From a virus, in the IMG/VR virus record IMGVR_UViG_3300031787_000971, positions 1 to 21,365 of that record: a stretch of DNA of 21,365 bases. One strand, written 5' to 3'. Below the pieces are notes generated by a model, which saw only the letters and a list, made by a program, of their open reading frames with translations, searched no databases and had not been told where the DNA came from. Numbering within the stretch: position 1 is the first letter of the stretch; each line of letters opens with the position of its first letter. The translations under genes and the position numbers were made by a program. Shown piece after piece: positions 369-20,763 of the stretch.

Positions 369-549
369 ACTTCTGCAAGTCACCTCTGGCGTGGTCGCCA
401 ATGTGACCGTCAATCTTGGACTCAATGCGTGCCATGCCTTGCACGACAAGCATGTGGTCGTCCTTGTTTTCTTTTCTGCCACGTTGAATCAAAGCGGCGA
501 GAACAACTCCGACAAGCCCAATGAAGGCAACGGCAATCGCTTCCATCAT
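367..549 (-). CDS. Small membrane protein of the lysis cassette (holin- or spanin-like)
   Basis: This 60-residue protein has one strong transmembrane segment at about residues 4-22 (EAIAVAFIGLVGVVLAALI). A charged turn RGRKENKDDH follows, then a polar helical tail. The start is one of two consecutive ATGs at 549 and 546; the first overlaps the endolysin stop as ATGA, which indicates coupled translation. Placement directly after the endolysin suggests a role in lysis, as a holin, antiholin or accessory membrane protein. One-membrane-pass proteins with a coiled tail are common beside actinophage lysins, but family membership cannot be settled by eye. A strong hairpin begins at its stop codon. 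Confidence 0.7.
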   Translation of the reverse strand: MMEAIAVAFIGLVGVVLAALIQRGRKENKDDHMLVVQGMARIESKIDGHIGDHARGDLQK

Positions 550-1124
550 GCAGGAGTTTGCTTGTACGGCGGCACAGCATCGCCTTCGCAATACTGCCAG
601 TGCCACGCCTCAAACTCAGGCGACTTGTCGTTGTCTGTTTGCAGATAGAACCCGAAACGAGGCGCATTTGCCAGCATCCACGGGTATGCCTTTTTGGTTC
701 CGCCGAGCGAGACAATCTCACCGTTCTTGCCTTCTGCGGCAAGGTCAATGGCAAGCCCCCACCCGTGGTTACTTCCACGCACGCCAGTCGGGTCGGGGGC
801 GGCAGATGGTGCTTTGCCCTTCTTCAAGTACCACGTTTTGCCTTCATAGGTGCGTGTCACCTGCGGCTTGCGTCCCTCATCTTTGAGCGAATAGCGGTCA
901 TTGAACATGTCCACCTGACTCTCAAACGAACGATAGTCACCGATGTTGCGCAACGTAACGCCAGCCGCTTTCGCTTCGTCATACATGGCATTGAAATGGA
1001 CGGCAACTTCTTTCAGCATCTTTCCGCCGCACTTCACGGGGGCAAGCATTCCCTTGTCCAAACGACCGTTGATTTTCCCCTTCAACACGGAAGGCAGAAC
1101 GAGTTTCTTGTATGGCACTTTCAT
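546..1124 (-). CDS. Endolysin, peptidase M15 (VanY-like) family
   Basis: This 192-residue protein carries the zinc-peptidase signature of the M15 family. SNHGWGLAID (118-127) supplies the first zinc ligands His120 and Asp127. EAWHWQY (172-178) supplies catalytic Glu172 and the third zinc ligand His175. Upstream, GDYRSFESQ (62-70) matches the substrate-side motif of VanY/D,D-carboxypeptidase relatives. Family members cut peptide cross-links in peptidoglycan, so this is the likely lysis enzyme. There is no signal peptide, so export probably depends on the neighbouring membrane proteins. The ATG at 1124 overlaps the stop of the upstream holin-like gene as ATGA, and its own stop overlaps the next small membrane gene the same way. 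No separate cell-wall-binding domain is obvious, although the first 45 residues are basic and could contribute to binding. Confidence 0.88.
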   Translation of the reverse strand: MKVPYKKLVLPSVLKGKINGRLDKGMLAPVKCGGKMLKEVAVHFNAMYDEAKAAGVTLRNIGDYRSFESQVDMFNDRYSLKDEGRKPQVTRTYEGKTWYLKKGKAPSAAPDPTGVRGSNHGWGLAIDLAAEGKNGEIVSLGGTKKAYPWMLANAPRFGFYLQTDNDKSPEFEAWHWQYCEGDAVPPYKQTPA

Positions 1125-1375
1125 GCTTGTTCCTCACTGTTGTTCTTCGGGGTGGCAGGTGCGCCACCAAAGATTGCGGCAAGTTCTGCCTTGTCCACTA
1201 TGCCATCGTTGGCATACGCTCGAGCGAGTTTCTCACCGACTTGTGCGGCGGCGGCAATACCTGCCAACACGGCGGCTTTCCACACGGGAATGTCCCCAAG
1301 TACGGACGCACCACCGATGATGCCCATTGCGCTGTAACCGAACACGGCAAAAACACGCAAAAGAATCTGCTTCAT
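1121..1375 (-). CDS. Putative holin
   Basis: This 84-residue protein has a hydrophobic N-terminus (residues 4-27, ILLRVFAVFGYSAMGIIGGA). A second Ala-rich, weakly hydrophobic helix lies around residues 31-48, followed by a polar tail ending SEEQA. Its size, membrane topology and placement immediately before the endolysin are what is expected of a holin, which forms membrane lesions that release or activate the lysin. Similar small proteins with an Ala-rich VWKAAVLAG stretch are familiar in environmental actinophage lysis cassettes, though I cannot confirm the family. The start overlaps the preceding gene as ATGA and the stop overlaps the endolysin as ATGA. Confidence 0.65.
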   Translation of the reverse strand: MKQILLRVFAVFGYSAMGIIGGASVLGDIPVWKAAVLAGIAAAAQVGEKLARAYANDGIVDKAELAAIFGGAPATPKNNSEEQA

Positions 1376-1548
1376 TCCTCATCTCCTTTGAGAGCGACAG
1401 CAATCAGGTTGACAACCAACCCAACAATGCTGATGATTATTCCGAGGCGACGAGTTGAACCAGTCAACGTGATGAGGACAAGCCCTGTGCCTGCCAACGT
1501 CCACGCCAGACCTGTCATCTCGTCAAGCCACTTTTTCACACGGCACAT
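1372..1548 (-). CDS. Small two-helix membrane protein, possibly with a frame disruption at its 5' end
   Basis: This 58-residue protein was found by direct translation. It has two hydrophobic helices, about residues 13-29 (GLAWTLAGTGLVLITLT) and 36-54 (LGIIISIVGLVVNLIAVAL), separated by a GSTRR turn, and ends in GDEE. It could be a second holin or antiholin. The stop overlaps the next gene as ATGA. The start is uncertain: the ATG at 1548 has no clear ribosome-binding site, and an internal ATG at 1518 lies four bases after the stop of a 19-codon frame (1523-1582). That micro-frame and this one meet at an A5 run (1532-1536). If the run were four bases long, the two would make one continuous protein of about 69 residues reading NVPCEK-WLDEMTG. 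Confidence 0.6.
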   Translation of the reverse strand: MCRVKKWLDEMTGLAWTLAGTGLVLITLTGSTRRLGIIISIVGLVVNLIAVALKGDEE

Positions 1549-1582
1549 TCTTGTCGTCAGTGTGTGAGTTGCGTTGCATCAT
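1523..1582 (-). other. Nineteen-codon micro-frame upstream of the small membrane gene
   Basis: Tandem ATGs at 1582 and 1579 overlap the stop of the PA14 gene as ATGA. They open a frame reading MMQRNSHTDDKNVPCEKVA before a TGA at 1523-1525. The stop lies four bases before an in-frame ATG of the membrane protein, so it could be a translational-coupling leader. The alternative is that it is the true N-terminus of the membrane protein, separated from it by one extra A in the 1532-1536 run. The sequence alone cannot decide between these. Confidence 0.35.
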
Positions 1583-2889
1583 CGTGACTTTCGTGTTGGT
1601 GTAGGCACGGCAGACAATGCGGCACTCACTGCAATCACAACACGACGTGTTGACACAGGCACATTGGAACCGAGCGGCACATACGAATCAACTGCGCCAC
1701 TGAACACATTGATTTGTTCCTCAAATGCTTCACGCACGTCATCACTTGCTTGTTGCACAGTTGCCACCAAAACTGCCAACTCGGTTTCGTTCAGTGCGTC
1801 AACGTCCAAGGCGGCGAATACTGCCTCTGCCTCGGTCTTGTCAAGCACCGCCACAGCGTTTTCATCAAGGACGATTGTTTTCGCCTCGTCATTTGAGACA
1901 CCCCCCACCAGAGCCGTTGTAACGGCTTCTGCGGCGTTTGACCCCTCTTGGGGTACTTGCACCTGAATCGTGGTGGTTGTCGCAACAGGGGCGATTGTGG
2001 TGGGCGTTTCTTGCGTTGTCGTGGTCAGATTGGGCGTGACAGTCGGACGAACAACAACAGTGGACGTATTTGTGGCTGGTAGGGTCGTTGACGTGGAAGA
2101 AATAACCGTGCTGTCAATAATCGCTGTGGGTGCCGTACTGCTCGGCATCGCCGTACTCTCACTGGGCTGGTAGGTCGTTGAAGTTTCCACGCTCGTCGTC
2201 GTTTGGACGGACGTTGTTTCTGTACTTGTTGGCATGGGCGTTGTTGTTGTTGACGGCTCAACTGGTTGAGTGGTTGGCACAACTTGCACTGTGGTTGTTG
2301 TTTGGCTTGTGGTGGTCGTTGGCAGTGTGGTTGTGGTACTCGTTGTGCTGGTTGTTGATACAGGCAGTTGTGTGAACGCCGACGCAGGCACAATCTCCCA
2401 CGCACCATCAATCAGCCACCACAGTTGCACCCACGCACCGCCACCGTTCTCGTAAAACCACAACGTGAACGGCTGTGACACCCCTTCGGTAAAGTCCACG
2501 GGTGCGCTGATAGAACCGCCACCACCCTTGTCGTACCAATCGTCCGTCGCCAACTCGTCATTGATGAACAGTTTTGTGCCGTCGTCCGCTTGTGCCATGA
2601 ACTGCACTGCACCAGTTGAAGGTGCGGTCAAATGCCCTTCGTATCGGACAACAAAATCGTCACGCAACCCGAACAGTGGTTGTGCATCAAAGTTGTTCAG
2701 CACTTGCTGTTGCGTAACCATGCCAGCAATGCGTGTTGTTGGTGGCAATGGTGGTGCGTTGTTGTACTGGTTCCATTGCGTCCAGTTGTCATACACCGTG
2801 ACCAACACACCTGTTGGTTGTTCTTGTGCCTCAACAGTTGTTGAGTAGAGAGCCAAAATCGCCGCTGGCAAAAACACCAGCCAACGCAT
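1579..2889 (-). CDS. Secreted PA14-domain protein on a Thr/Ser-rich stalk
   Basis: This 436-residue protein starts at the ATG at 2889, which overlaps the previous stop as TAATG. A Sec-type signal peptide covers residues 1-22 (MRWLVFLPAAILALYSTTVEA). A PA14 domain covers roughly 25-175, with the family's hallmark features: GHLTAPSTGAVQF, then DDGTKLFIND, then DDWYDKGGG, then WFYENGGGAWVQLWW. PA14 domains are beta-barrels that often bind carbohydrate. A linker of about 165 residues dominated by Thr, Ser, Pro and Val follows (encoded by about 1985-2370). A folded acidic C-terminal region comes next, containing VLDKTEAEAVFAALDVDAL, and the protein ends in a basic tail, PTPTRKSR. No LPxTG sorting motif is visible. 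A signal peptide in a phage late operon is unusual. It may be a virion surface protein, a host-envelope protein made during infection, or a captured host adhesin. The function is not established. Confidence 0.7.
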   Translation of the reverse strand: MRWLVFLPAAILALYSTTVEAQEQPTGVLVTVYDNWTQWNQYNNAPPLPPTTRIAGMVTQQQVLNNFDAQPLFGLRDDFVVRYEGHLTAPSTGAVQFMAQADDGTKLFINDELATDDWYDKGGGGSISAPVDFTEGVSQPFTLWFYENGGGAWVQLWWLIDGAWEIVPASAFTQLPVSTTSTTSTTTTLPTTTTSQTTTTVQVVPTTQPVEPSTTTTPMPTSTETTSVQTTTSVETSTTYQPSESTAMPSSTAPTAIIDSTVISSTSTTLPATNTSTVVVRPTVTPNLTTTTQETPTTIAPVATTTTIQVQVPQEGSNAAEAVTTALVGGVSNDEAKTIVLDENAVAVLDKTEAEAVFAALDVDALNETELAVLVATVQQASDDVREAFEEQINVFSGAVDSYVPLGSNVPVSTRRVVIAVSAALSAVPTPTRKSR

Positions 2890-3632
2890 TACGAGTTTCT
2901 GTACCCATACAGGTGCCATGTTCCTGTCATGCCAACAGCGCACGTCAAACGTATTCTGTCTGGGGAGATTGTTCTTCCACCAGCGTATTCGTATCCGAAC
3001 GAAATCAGTTGGGTATTAGAAGGGTCATACCCAGAACCAACCACGTTGGTGCGATAAACGGTGGTGTTCATGCCGCCCACATCAAAAGAGATACGGGTCG
3101 GAGAGTTGGCATCGTAAACAGTTCCAAGTGAAAAATCTGCACCATTGTTCCTTTGCCCAAACGATGCGACAGTACCAAGGTAGTTACCAGAAACACCCCC
3201 GCCGAAGTAACCCGTGACGTAGCCCGTTGATGCATCACGCAACGTCGCCGTAACCGCAGAAGCACCAGTACCGCTATGACGGGTTAGCCAGAAAACGACA
3301 CGAAAGTTTTGGTATGCAGTCGTAAACCCAGTAATGTCAATCGTTGTCACGTTTGTTGGGCTTCCGCTTGCGATGAACTCCAGTCCTGGCGGTGTTGAGG
3401 ACGACACAACGTTGACCCATGCGCTACCTGTGTATGACTGCAATGTGTTTGTGTCGTCCAGATAGCAGAACATGCCTTCCGCCAACACGGGTTCACCGAC
3501 ACCACCAAACGCCGCATCACGAGTCGCCGCATTGGCAAACCGCATGATGACTTGGTCTTGAAGGTATGTGTTGACCTGTGCGGCGGTCAAAATCTGACCG
3601 TCAACAAACAGTTTTGTGCCTGCGCCAGCCAT
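2889..3632 (-). CDS. Minor tail / tail fibre protein
   Basis: This 247-residue protein has an N-terminus (MAGAGTKLFVDGQILTAAQV, then NTYLQDQVIMRFANA) of the kind that recurs in actinobacteriophage minor tail proteins. A segment CYLDDTNTLQSYTGSAWVNV (56-75) follows, also characteristic of such proteins. The rest is Gly/Ser/Thr-rich beta-structure ending in GTWHLYGYRNS, plausible as a receptor-binding or fibre head domain. The ATG at 3632 overlaps the upstream stop as TAATG. Its position after the main fibre gene supports a role at the tail tip. Host specificity is inferred, not shown. Confidence 0.75.
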   Translation of the reverse strand: MAGAGTKLFVDGQILTAAQVNTYLQDQVIMRFANAATRDAAFGGVGEPVLAEGMFCYLDDTNTLQSYTGSAWVNVVSSSTPPGLEFIASGSPTNVTTIDITGFTTAYQNFRVVFWLTRHSGTGASAVTATLRDASTGYVTGYFGGGVSGNYLGTVASFGQRNNGADFSLGTVYDANSPTRISFDVGGMNTTVYRTNVVGSGYDPSNTQLISFGYEYAGGRTISPDRIRLTCAVGMTGTWHLYGYRNS

Positions 3633-10202: not shown

Positions 10203-10622
10203 TTATGGGGTAGTTGACTTTGCGAGTGTTCCACCTGTGAAGGAAACGCTGGTCATTGCCAGTTCACCGACTGCGCCAGCCACAGGAGTGTGAGCGGCGA
10301 GGTATGTGCCAGTGAGCGTGTAGGCAGGGTTGGTTGACGAGGTGGTTGCCCCGTTCGGCTTGATGATGACCGTTGTGGTGGTGCCAACAAGCGGATACAG
10401 GACTGCTTCAACGCTGTTTGACGGCGATACGGCAAAGTCCTGCATGAACTCAACATCACAGGAGTTGTTCTGCAATCCGCCAGTGAACTTGTGGGCAGTG
10501 TCGCCAAACGCCGTGATTTCCACCGAGTCCACTTCATAGTTCAGCGTGACGCTGTTGGAGTGGTCGGACAGCACAGTGCCGCCGATGGAAATGTATGCGT
10601 CTTTGAGAACGAGAACAGCCAT
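10203..10622 (-). CDS. Major tail protein, second copy
   Basis: This 139-residue tail tube protein is nearly a duplicate of the one encoded just upstream: about 101 of 135 aligned positions are identical by hand count. Shared blocks include MAVLVLKDA, NYEVDSVE, FTGGLQNNS, YPLVGTTTTV and LAAHTPVAGAVGELAMTS. The fold is expected to be the beta-sandwich tube domain that stacks in hexameric rings. This copy has four extra residues around VSPSNSVEA (65-73) and differs mostly at surface-like positions. It is twelve bases downstream of the first copy and has its own ribosome-binding site, so both are likely made. It may form part of a mixed tube or a specialised ring. Confidence 0.82.
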   Translation of the reverse strand: MAVLVLKDAYISIGGTVLSDHSNSVTLNYEVDSVEITAFGDTAHKFTGGLQNNSCDVEFMQDFAVSPSNSVEAVLYPLVGTTTTVIIKPNGATTSSTNPAYTLTGTYLAAHTPVAGAVGELAMTSVSFTGGTLAKSTTP

Positions 10623-10634
10623 GATGTTCCTTCC

Positions 10635-11042
10635 TTACGAGGTTGCCTTGACGAGCGTGCCGCCCGTAAAGGAGAGCGAGGTCATTGCCAGTTCGCCAAC
10701 TGCGCCAGCGACAGGAGTGTGTGCCGCAAGGAACGTGCCAGTGATGGTGTAAGACGGGTTGGTGGTGCTGACTGCCGAGGACGTGGGCTTGATGACAACG
10801 GTGGTGGTTGTACCAACCAGCGGATACACGGTTGCTTCCACATTTGCGGCGGCGAAGTCCTGCATCAACTCAATGTCAATGCTGTTGTTTTGGAGTCCAC
10901 CAGTGAACACATGTCCGCCACTGCCAAACGCTGTGACCTCAACCGAATCCACCTCGTAGTTGACGGTGACCGAGTTTGCGTGGTCACTCAGAGCAACGGA
11001 GTTGATGGTGATTGAGGCATCTTTGAGAACTAGAACTGCCAT
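10635..11042 (-). CDS. Major tail protein, first copy
   Basis: This 135-residue protein precedes the second copy in transcription order. It has the family's strand pattern: an N-terminal ITINSVALSDHANSV hairpin, VDSVEVTAF, FTGGLQNNSIDIELMQDF, YPLVGTTTTVVIKP, then a closing ELAMTSLSFTGGTLVK. Its location between the tail terminator and the chaperone genes is the standard place for the tail tube gene. One base separates its ATG from the preceding stop, and the ribosome-binding site GAAGGAAG lies inside the end of the preceding small gene. Which copy is the main tube subunit cannot be told from sequence. Confidence 0.85.
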   Translation of the reverse strand: MAVLVLKDASITINSVALSDHANSVTVNYEVDSVEVTAFGSGGHVFTGGLQNNSIDIELMQDFAAANVEATVYPLVGTTTTVVIKPTSSAVSTTNPSYTITGTFLAAHTPVAGAVGELAMTSLSFTGGTLVKATS

Positions 11043-19420: not shown

Positions 19421-19645
19421 TCATTTTTTTTGGTGACGGTTGGCAAATGCCACTGATGCGTCACCGATTGTGGCGGCGAGGTCGTGGTCGCCGTATTCAA
19501 CGAGGCAGTGTGCGAGGTCGTCAAAGGCTTCCAGCATTGTTTGTTGTGCGTATTGTGCCACGTCTGGTTCGTTCATGCGGTCTGATGCTTCAACGCTTAT
19601 CATCAACGCACGTTTGACGGCGTTGTGCATCTCCTCAAAGTCCAT
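19421..19645 (-). CDS. Small helical protein of unknown function
   Basis: This 74-residue protein is predicted to be almost entirely helical: MHNAVKRALMISVEASDRMN, YAQQTMLEAFDDLAHCLVEY and DLAATIGDASVAFANRHQKK. I do not recognise a family. Its ATG overlaps the stop of the ATPase-acetyltransferase gene as TGATG, so it belongs to the same operon. It ends CAA AAA AAA TGA, an in-phase A AAA AAA heptamer immediately before the stop, which could let some ribosomes slip into the HNH frame. An accessory role for either neighbour is possible. Confidence 0.72.
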   Translation of the reverse strand: MDFEEMHNAVKRALMISVEASDRMNEPDVAQYAQQTMLEAFDDLAHCLVEYGDHDLAATIGDASVAFANRHQKK

Positions 19646-20763
19646 CAGTGACCTTGATTGGGTAGAAGTCGGCGTGCTGTGGCTGATGGTTCGCCAACGT
19701 ACTTGAATGATGCGGTCACTCTGCCTCGTGATGAAGTGAGGTCACGTCCAACGGTGCTTGTTTTGCCTTGTGCCTGTACTCGTGATGGTTTGCGAACCAT
19801 TGCCCAGTTGGGATTGTGATTGAGTCCGTTGATTGCGGCAGGGTGGCTGCTGGTTATGTACATTTGTTTGCCGTCTGCCACATACGCTGATGCCACCGTG
19901 TTCATCACATGTGTCCCGATGCCTATGCCCTGATAGTCAGGCAGAATCACAATGCGTGCAATGCGTCGGGCGTTCTTCACTTTTGGGTGTGGCATTGCCA
20001 TGATGGTGCAGATTGCGGCTGGCTGGTCGTCCACAAATGCCACATACGCCGTCCATGACGTGACGTTGCTGTGGTCTAGATAGTGATGACGTGCGAATAA
20101 CTGCCAAGCGGAACGATGACACCGTTTGATTGTGATGTTGATTGGCGGTCGCCGAAGTGACTCCCATCGGAAGGTGCCAGTGGCAGGCTCGTATGTCCAA
20201 TCAGGTGTCAACCATTCGGCAATGTCGTAATGGCAGGACACGGCAACAAACTTTTGTCCGTTGCGTCGGACGGTCTTGGCGAGTGCTGTGGAACCAATCT
20301 TTGCCACAGTTCTATCAACAACGCTGGTGAACTCGTCCACAACGACCATCTCAGGGTTCTCAGCCAACAGACGTGCCATTGATACACGGAACTGCTCACC
20401 ATTGGACAGTGTGTGGAACGGTCGCAACCATGCAGGCGGTGACGAGAACCCGACAGACGACAACAGAAGTGCCACGTCCTTCACACTCATCTTGGTTGGG
20501 AAAGCGTCAATGACTGCCTTGTTGATGTCCCATTCCATTTTCGGGTCAACGAGGTCGCCAAAGTGTTTGCGTGCAATGGTGGACTTGCCACTGCCTGATG
20601 CACCGACAATCAAACCGATGTTCCACGGGCGGCTGGATAGGTCAGGCAGATTGTCAATGATTGTTGTTTGTGCCGTTTTGGCGGCAGGAATGTCAAACAT
20701 CGCTTCCATCTGAATCACTTTTGGCGTGCGTTCCACGCCACTTTTGAGAATCAGGTTGCTCAT
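19645..20763 (-). CDS. ABC-type ATPase fused to a GNAT acetyltransferase domain (COG2401-like)
   Basis: This 372-residue protein joins two enzymes. Residues about 45-200 are an ABC ATPase: Walker A GASGSGKST (54-62), signature LSNGE (119-123), Walker B VVVDEF (140-145), D-loop SVVD (147-150) and H-loop His178. No membrane segments are present, so it is not a transporter. Residues about 205-350 are a GNAT domain with the acetyl-CoA loop VILPDYQGIGIGTHVM (272-287), preceded by FARHHYLDHSN and a TAYVAFVDDQPAAIC strand. The fusion corresponds to COG2401, an uncharacterised group. The GNAT part has a HHYL segment that invites comparison with Mom, the phage Mu GNAT-fold enzyme that modifies adenine in DNA; this link is only suggestive. 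It overlaps the ParB-like gene as ATGA. Confidence 0.85.
   Translation of the reverse strand: MSNLILKSGVERTPKVIQMEAMFDIPAAKTAQTTIIDNLPDLSSRPWNIGLIVGASGSGKSTIARKHFGDLVDPKMEWDINKAVIDAFPTKMSVKDVALLLSSVGFSSPPAWLRPFHTLSNGEQFRVSMARLLAENPEMVVVDEFTSVVDRTVAKIGSTALAKTVRRNGQKFVAVSCHYDIAEWLTPDWTYEPATGTFRWESLRRPPINITIKRCHRSAWQLFARHHYLDHSNVTSWTAYVAFVDDQPAAICTIMAMPHPKVKNARRIARIVILPDYQGIGIGTHVMNTVASAYVADGKQMYITSSHPAAINGLNHNPNWAMVRKPSRVQAQGKTSTVGRDLTSSRGRVTASFKYVGEPSATARRLLPNQGH

Follow-up and report, generated by a model that had tools for sequence, protein, structure and literature searches.

A conserved gene pair of lake-actinobacteria viruses that appears to place a stalked sugar-binding protein on the infected cell

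Class II holins form membrane lesions that release or activate the endolysin, and spanins of the Rz/Rz1 type pair an inner-membrane N-in-C-out protein with an outer-membrane lipoprotein. In T4, RI acts on the holin T, and superinfection-exclusion lipoproteins of the T5 Llp type block the phage's own receptor. In actinobacterial phages, the closest described system is LysZ of the Corynebacterium glutamicum phages CL31 and Cog, which, as cited in PMC13056207, is reported to act on lipid-anchored glycans. According to the same text, LysZ is a 177-aa protein with one TMD in N-in-C-out orientation and a proposed spanin-like role, and its deletion leads to small plaques, a phenotype rescued on a host without lipoarabinomannan. 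Two further lysis-cassette systems are described: LysF1a/LysF1b of the mycobacteriophages Girr and NBJ, i.e. two small membrane proteins that act together and whose genes share an ATGA overlap (PMC13056207), and gp33 of a Gordonia phage, an 87-aa protein with a signal sequence and one TM in N-out-C-in orientation (PMC9671378). The gene pair reported here would fit this known kind of actinobacterial phage lysis accessory; we found no description of it in the literature on PA14 in phages, actinophage lysis cassettes and superinfection-exclusion lectins outside subscription papers and preprints.

The window, i.e. the whole stretch of DNA analysed, is a 21,365-base virus record (IMGVR_UViG_3300031787_000971). 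A sequence-only reading had noted in it a secreted PA14-domain protein at 1579-2889; these coordinates are correct, with the gene on the minus strand (Table 1). From its N-terminus, the protein consists of a signal peptide, a PA14 head, a Thr/Ser stalk, a helical base, a hydrophobic segment and a basic tail. The claimed signal peptide corresponds to a signal-peptide-like N-terminus called by heuristic, in which a charged start is followed by WLVFLPAAILALYSTT and then by VEA and QE, and cleavage would be expected after VEA. The PA14 domain is likewise borne out: PF07691 matches with 36.2 bits against a curated cut-off of 24 (E=6.3e-9), and AlphaFold2 models a beta-sandwich with pLDDT mostly above 90, whose closest solved structures, both at Z about 19-20, are 6qdi and the PA14 domain of RsgI3, 6qe7 (VIA-align Z=19.6, 2.0 A over 138 residues). 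Residues D102, D103 and G104 are invariant in 31/31 aligned relatives, the Asp pair being also the general PA14 pattern; in PA14 lectins we take this Asp-Asp pair to be the sugar/calcium site. The domain is a plain member of its family. Searches of the surface protein returned no Pfam match over cut-off besides PA14 and no NCBIfam match.

The stalk had been described as about 165 residues dominated by Thr and Ser. The composition holds (Thr+Ser account for 51.7% of the stalk, for 13.3% of the remaining protein and for 28.0% of the highest-scoring 143-aa window among the other genes tested), whereas the length comes down to the 143 residues measured. Its Thr codons are mixed (ACA 19, ACG 19, ACC 13, ACT 4), and the linker is therefore not a simple DNA repeat. 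The distinct C-terminal domain noted earlier is a confidently modelled helical domain (residues 319-392, block-mean pLDDT about 90-96 over most of it), and its motif is common to the window-type relatives. The helix that follows is modelled apart from the base helices and, together with the basic tail, looks like a membrane anchor in sequence and model. With only about 14-16 residues, its hydrophobic run is short for a TM helix, which makes topology the weakest link in the functional reading. The anatomy of the protein is well supported, and it is from this anatomy and its genomic context that we infer function.

Table 1 Features of the surface-protein gene and its neighbours, by position in the window
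Feature	Positions	Strand	Details or basis
Surface-protein gene	1579..2889	minus	436 aa; ATG at 2889, stop at 1579-1581
Signal-peptide-like N-terminus, residues 1-21	2827..2889	minus	sequence, heuristic, model helix 6-14
PA14 domain, residues about 27-172	2374..2811	minus	Pfam, AlphaFold2, VIA-align
Thr/Ser-rich linker, residues 176-318	1936..2364	minus	composition; disordered in AlphaFold2
Helical base domain, residues 319-411, motif YVPxGSxxPVxxRR	1657..1935	minus	sequence, AlphaFold2
C-terminal hydrophobic helix 412-426 and basic tail ending RKSR	1582..1656	minus	AlphaFold2, sequence
Upstream fibre-like gene	2889..3632	minus	assigned by position; PHROG matches all of unknown function
58-aa two-TM partner gene, phrog_29041 family	1372..1548	minus	two hydrophobic stretches; PHROG match
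84-aa hydrophobic holin-like protein	1121..1375	minus	sequence character and position
Endolysin, VanY/M15 peptidase	546..1124	minus	PF02557, E=2e-18

The assigned position between fibre and lysis genes stands as well. Upstream lies the fibre-like gene, whose stop overlaps the ATG of the surface gene; downstream, after 30 bases, begins the two-TM gene, the stop of which overlaps the start of the holin-like gene by 4 nt, and the endolysin gene comes next. The surface gene therefore heads a run of lysis-type genes. The 58-aa two-TM gene, the identity of the next two genes as holin-like ORF and VanY/M15 endolysin, and the hydrophobic segment with its basic tail were absent from the sequence-only reading. 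Matches of the 58-aa protein were confined to phrog_29041 (unknown function), with no Pfam match over cut-off and no NCBIfam match. The holin-like family matches phrog_26427, labelled 'nuclease', a label that looks wrong since the product is a small hydrophobic protein. The M15 domain of the endolysin also matches a region within the PHROG tape-measure family phrog_16823, and such peptidase domains may, by this sequence match, move between tail and lysis genes. Elsewhere in the window, the product of 19645-20763 (minus strand) resembles ABC-type ATPases in its N-terminal half (best match to NCBIfam ABC ATPases at E about 4e-10) and, by eye, an acetyltransferase in its C-terminal half, which is unusual near the terminase end of a phage; 10203-10622 and 10635-11042 (minus strand) encode adjacent, clearly similar proteins of 135-139 aa that both start with MAVLVLKDA. 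The two are a duplication in tandem, and the protein duplicated is perhaps the major tail protein.

Relatives were collected from viral contigs, where the C-terminal part of the surface protein gave 15 loci and the signal peptide-PA14 part 160 confirmed loci, 80 of which were kept. Pooling the two scans with further loci, and excluding the window's own loci and the second loci of four contigs, yielded 92 loci, of which 70 were testable, i.e. contained the gene in full and no less than 230 nt beyond its downstream end. In 70/70, the two-TM partner either adjoins the surface gene (68) or is fused to the C-terminus of its product (2). A gene with the strict two-TM motif follows in 54 loci and a looser version in 14; all of the latter, which fail the strict regular expression, match the two-TM profile, several having helped to build it, and the independent evidence for them is direct reading of the sequences. 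The fused cases are L096 (the metagenome-assembled phage DSL-LC01) and L097, and the fused tail of DSL-LC01 matches phrog_29041, the same PHROG as the 58-aa protein of the window. In 46/54 strict-motif loci, the two-TM gene starts -4 to +5 nt from the end of the upstream frame, suggesting from gene spacing that the two genes are translationally coupled.

Conversely, scanning viral contigs with two alignments of the two-TM protein returned at least 585 and at least 565 confirmed stretches, two sets that may overlap. Eighty loci were kept per scan and 159 analysed, 150 with an upstream ORF and 9 without a gene or room for one; at least three of the 150 upstream ORFs (L132, L197 and L199) are not surface-type. 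One of the two subfamilies we label 'acI-type', which implies no host assignment. Its two-TM proteins align by profile with those of the window type (hhalign 89.7; acI profile on the window protein, E=0.001), a relationship with better support than that of the bases, and have no Pfam match over cut-off. The bases of the two subfamilies are likely homologous by profile comparison (hhalign probability 97.3, but both are A/E-rich), and the acI-type base is without the YVPxGS motif. The linker differs in type among relatives, being Thr/Ser-rich, Pro/Glu-rich or long and Ala/Glu-rich, a variation suggesting that the linker needs to be long and open more than it needs a given sequence. Among 122 non-redundant pairs, the upstream protein carries a C-terminal hydrophobic stretch in 109 and a net positive charge in its last 8 residues in 119, and a charge of at least +2 is found in 98% of upstream proteins versus 33% of 815 control ORFs. 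The tail of the two-TM protein is modestly acidic, with a net charge of -1 or lower in 80/122 pairs and of -2 or lower in 25%, versus 4% of 1722 small hydrophobic ORFs.

The C-terminal order of YVPxGS motif, hydrophobic run and basic tail, and the shortness of that run for a permanent anchor, would also suit a wall protein carrying an undescribed tripartite sorting signal that is cut by a host enzyme, with any role in lysis being secondary. We consider this very unlikely: the C-terminal motif of the window protein is YVPLGS rather than LPXTG, the acI-type base lacks YVPxGS altogether, and in L096 and L097 the segment runs on into the two-TM module, which cleavage would remove. Still less probable is that the protein is part of the virion, e.g. 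of the tail tip or a decoration, the hydrophobic stretch at its N-terminus then being no signal peptide. Its gene directly follows the fibre genes, with the ATG overlapping the fibre stop, as expected under that reading; against it stand the anchor-like C-terminal segment, the pairing with a membrane protein and an AxA-type site in 90/92 relatives, a set preselected for a hydrophobic N-terminus. Homologues lacking the signal peptide, which had been named as counter-evidence to a secreted protein, were not seen, in a set that was itself chosen for an N-terminal hydrophobic stretch and a length above 200 aa (92/120 with the 5' end in the locus).

Linkage to lysis genes was assessed at 125 loci with at least 2.5 kb on either side, which are mutually related and hence not independent trials. 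In 75 of them, a member of the holin-like family is found no more than about 200 nt from the two-TM gene; in 10, it precedes that gene by about 1.0-1.3 kb, immediately ahead of the surface gene; 5 have it elsewhere, and the remaining 35 have no copy in the locus. At 46 loci with at least 5.5 kb on each side, again related to one another, 33 lysin ORFs were found, 23 of them in the first kb downstream; a holin or lysin is nearby in 36/46, and neither in 10/46. Of the seeds used to find lysins, Pfam confirms CHAP, VanY and M23, and two L007-like seeds have no Pfam match. The fused gene of DSL-LC01 is separated by about 4.5 kb from the annotated endolysin gene, which lies on the other strand. From gene order, then, the pair would usually belong to a lysis cassette. 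Small lipoprotein-like ORFs with a Cys past a hydrophobic N-terminus and an RYRYEC motif follow the two-TM gene in L049 and L063 and are possible further lysis parts. Genes for proteasome/HslV-like Ntn-hydrolases occur close to surface-protein or lysis genes at L084:7200-7721 and L260:14366-14992, and sequences similar by eye are present in L054, L076 and L092.

RsgI3, the protein with the closest solved fold, is an envelope protein whose outside PA14 domain is coupled to an inside regulator. Together with the fusion of surface protein and two-TM module in two phages, and their adjacency elsewhere, this evokes a sensor of lysis timing, in which the head would read an extracellular ligand (a free glycan, or a neighbouring or superinfecting phage) and the membrane base would trigger or restrain the two-TM protein, much like RI acting on T in T4. 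We regard such a sensor as unlikely. The cytoplasmic tail would comprise a few basic residues only, and the disordered stalk, varying in type between T/S-, P/E- and A/E-rich, would transmit a signal poorly. RsgI3 is a host regulator, and its cytoplasmic anti-sigma domain is absent from the surface protein. By fold, the head also resembles the sugar-binding PA14 heads of the Marinomonas primoryensis adhesin and of the yeast flocculin/Epa lectins. Those are cellular adhesins, unlike the phage surface protein, and we know of no two-TM partner or lysis linkage for any of them.

Lysis-gene position and the LysZ precedent favour a glycan-directed accessory of lysis over the other roles considered: we give roughly 40% probability to the surface protein acting at the host surface as a glycan-binding lysis accessory, analogous to LysZ but not a member of that family. 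Like LysZ as cited in PMC13056207, it would be a lysis-associated membrane protein of an actinobacterial phage whose outside part is thought to act on envelope glycans. It is set apart from that description by its 436 aa, signal peptide, N-terminal lectin head, stalk, C-terminal segment and two-TM partner, and its signal-peptide-like N-terminus and C-terminal segment predict N-out, as opposed to the N-in-C-out topology of the single TMD given there for LysZ. The pair recalls the two actinophage membrane proteins LysF1a/LysF1b; these, in the sections of PMC13056207 covered, are without signal peptide, head or stalk. With gp33 the surface protein shares a predicted exported N-terminus and one internal TM with the C-terminus inside, although gp33 has only 54 residues outside and no lectin head is mentioned for it in the passages of PMC9671378 covered.

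The pair also departs from spanins: reading for a lipobox found none in the surface protein or elsewhere in the pair, and the signal peptide implies the opposite topology. The 58-aa partner, with two hydrophobic stretches and its lysis linkage, has the shape of a class II holin, a shape common to many small membrane proteins.

The head is the variable part of the unit, on a conserved base. Of 120 upstream proteins whose 5' end falls within the locus, 92 have a signal-peptide-like N-terminus and exceed 200 aa; 41 of these 92 carry a PA14 head and 51 other heads. Over all 150 upstream proteins, a profile without the signal peptide finds PA14 in 47; one including it would match L186, L220 and L221 through the signal peptide alone. 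The non-PA14 heads form several clusters, and a Pfam scan of 10 such proteins yielded no head assignment. For L203, which has one of these heads, the model is a beta-sandwich (pLDDT mostly 70-90), with Foldseek matches that include CBM16, CBM29, CBM61, CBM35 and CBM6 at E-values near 1e-4. CBM-like sandwiches and PA14 are common folds, and a modelled fold would suggest sugar binding rather than prove it. Heads are interchangeable between closely related phages: L215 (PA14) and L220, L219 and L214 (another head) have similar signal peptides and unrelated heads, yet their bases are 98-100% identical over the last 90 residues and their DNA is 97.8-98.3% identical over 3-7 kb, beginning just past the head. 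Since L215 is known from one contig only, its swap may be an assembly chimera; L160 versus L168, L164 and L113 provides a second, weaker case.

Upstream of the surface gene, eleven loci (L203, L207, L209, L211, L213-L215, L217, L218, L220 and L221) carry a fibre gene that is Gly-rich and hypervariable, followed by a small gene of about 72-128 aa; these two genes make up an island of diversity, the DNA being closely similar otherwise. Between this fibre island and the surface gene, L214:2130-2612 and L218:2971-3453 encode a product that is sulfotransferase-like by eye (FGSFPRSGNFF).

Head swapping is also compatible with receptor masking, which had been proposed from the sequence as one purpose of export. 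A lectin displayed late in infection would cover the glycan receptor, thereby keeping sister phages from a doomed cell and progeny from debris, i.e. superinfection exclusion. The predicted surface display and sugar-binding heads, the exchange of heads between near-identical phages and the location of the surface gene beside the hypervariable fibre gene, in the same variable island, all point this way. However, in L209, L213, L214, L217 and L220 the heads are 87-99% identical while the fibres past residue 60 are just 34-64% identical, which argues that head and fibre are not locked together. Nor did head and fibre similarity correlate significantly in the one clade compared (Spearman 0.23, P=0.24, for 28 non-independent pairs of 8 loci, leaving out the near duplicates L207, L218 and L221), and lock-step evolution of the two was rejected for this clade. 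Since masking also leaves the two-TM partner and the holin/lysin linkage unexplained, we judge it rather unlikely.

The remaining suggestion, a captured host adhesin, is not supported. The surface gene is ordinary for the phage in codon usage (RSCU correlation 0.71, versus 0.50-0.90 for the other genes tested), and its relatives are abundant in viral contigs; on these two grounds a captured host gene was rejected, and recent capture is disfavoured, as is the virion part, though host copies may exist, the scan of 84,980 bacterial and archaeal genomes having used one narrow, degenerate peptide pattern; this gave 29 candidates and one match. The match lies on a 21-kb contig (C40 of G001; loci L260 and L097) binned in a 'Gammaproteobacteria' MAG. 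Besides a fused surface/two-TM gene, the contig carries PHROGs of endolysin, HslV-family, replication-initiation and metallo-phosphoesterase type, and it is probably a phage contig mis-binned into the MAG. In a collection of 50,697 phage records, DSL-LC01 was the sole match for the base, window two-TM and holin-like queries, the acI-type two-TM query had no match, and no cultured phage with the pair was found; the collection may or may not include Girr. DSL-LC01 was assembled from a metagenome and, according to PMC10611076, is predicted to infect Actinomycetia. Many viruses of lake actinobacteria appear to carry, next to their lysis genes, a two-gene unit that places a stalked sugar-binding protein on the infected cell surface.

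Of the roles first proposed for the protein, export to the surface of the host and binding of polysaccharide agree best with the signal-peptide-like N-terminus, the sugar-binding fold, the disordered stalk and the C-terminal hydrophobic segment with its basic tail; both are inferred, and masking keeps the place of a rival. As a lysis accessory, the protein would be made late, exported, tethered to the membrane and displayed by the infected cell, acting as a pair with the adjoining two-TM protein. The PA14 head would bind a glycan in the outer layer of the host, the stalk, disordered and Thr/Ser-rich, would carry the head through the wall, and the helical base and C-terminal hydrophobic segment would engage the two-TM partner next to the holin in the cytoplasmic membrane. 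During lysis, the two proteins could couple the membrane to the surface glycan layer and help to break or open that layer after the endolysin has cut the peptidoglycan. Against such an accessory speak the 35/125 loci without a holin-family gene, the 10/46 with neither holin nor lysin nearby, the distance of the fused DSL-LC01 gene from the endolysin, the short hydrophobic run and the modest acidity of the two-TM tail. The probability left beyond the five readings falls to other roles.

A bolder, and in our estimation doubtful, generalization would see in this two-gene actinophage system a widespread apparatus that spans the envelope and, by gripping or sensing surface glycans, drives or times lysis, i.e. 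a glycan-addressed third lysis component that evolved in actinobacterial phages, distinct from spanins, LysB and LysZ, with heads exchanged like receptor-binding tips to match strain-specific glycans. The head swap makes such strain-specific glycan targeting directly testable with purified domains. If the pair is indeed a lysis part, it would show by what means a glycan-coated surface is breached by phages of freshwater actinobacteria, hosts that are abundant but hard to culture, and would explain why this part needs exchangeable carbohydrate-binding heads.
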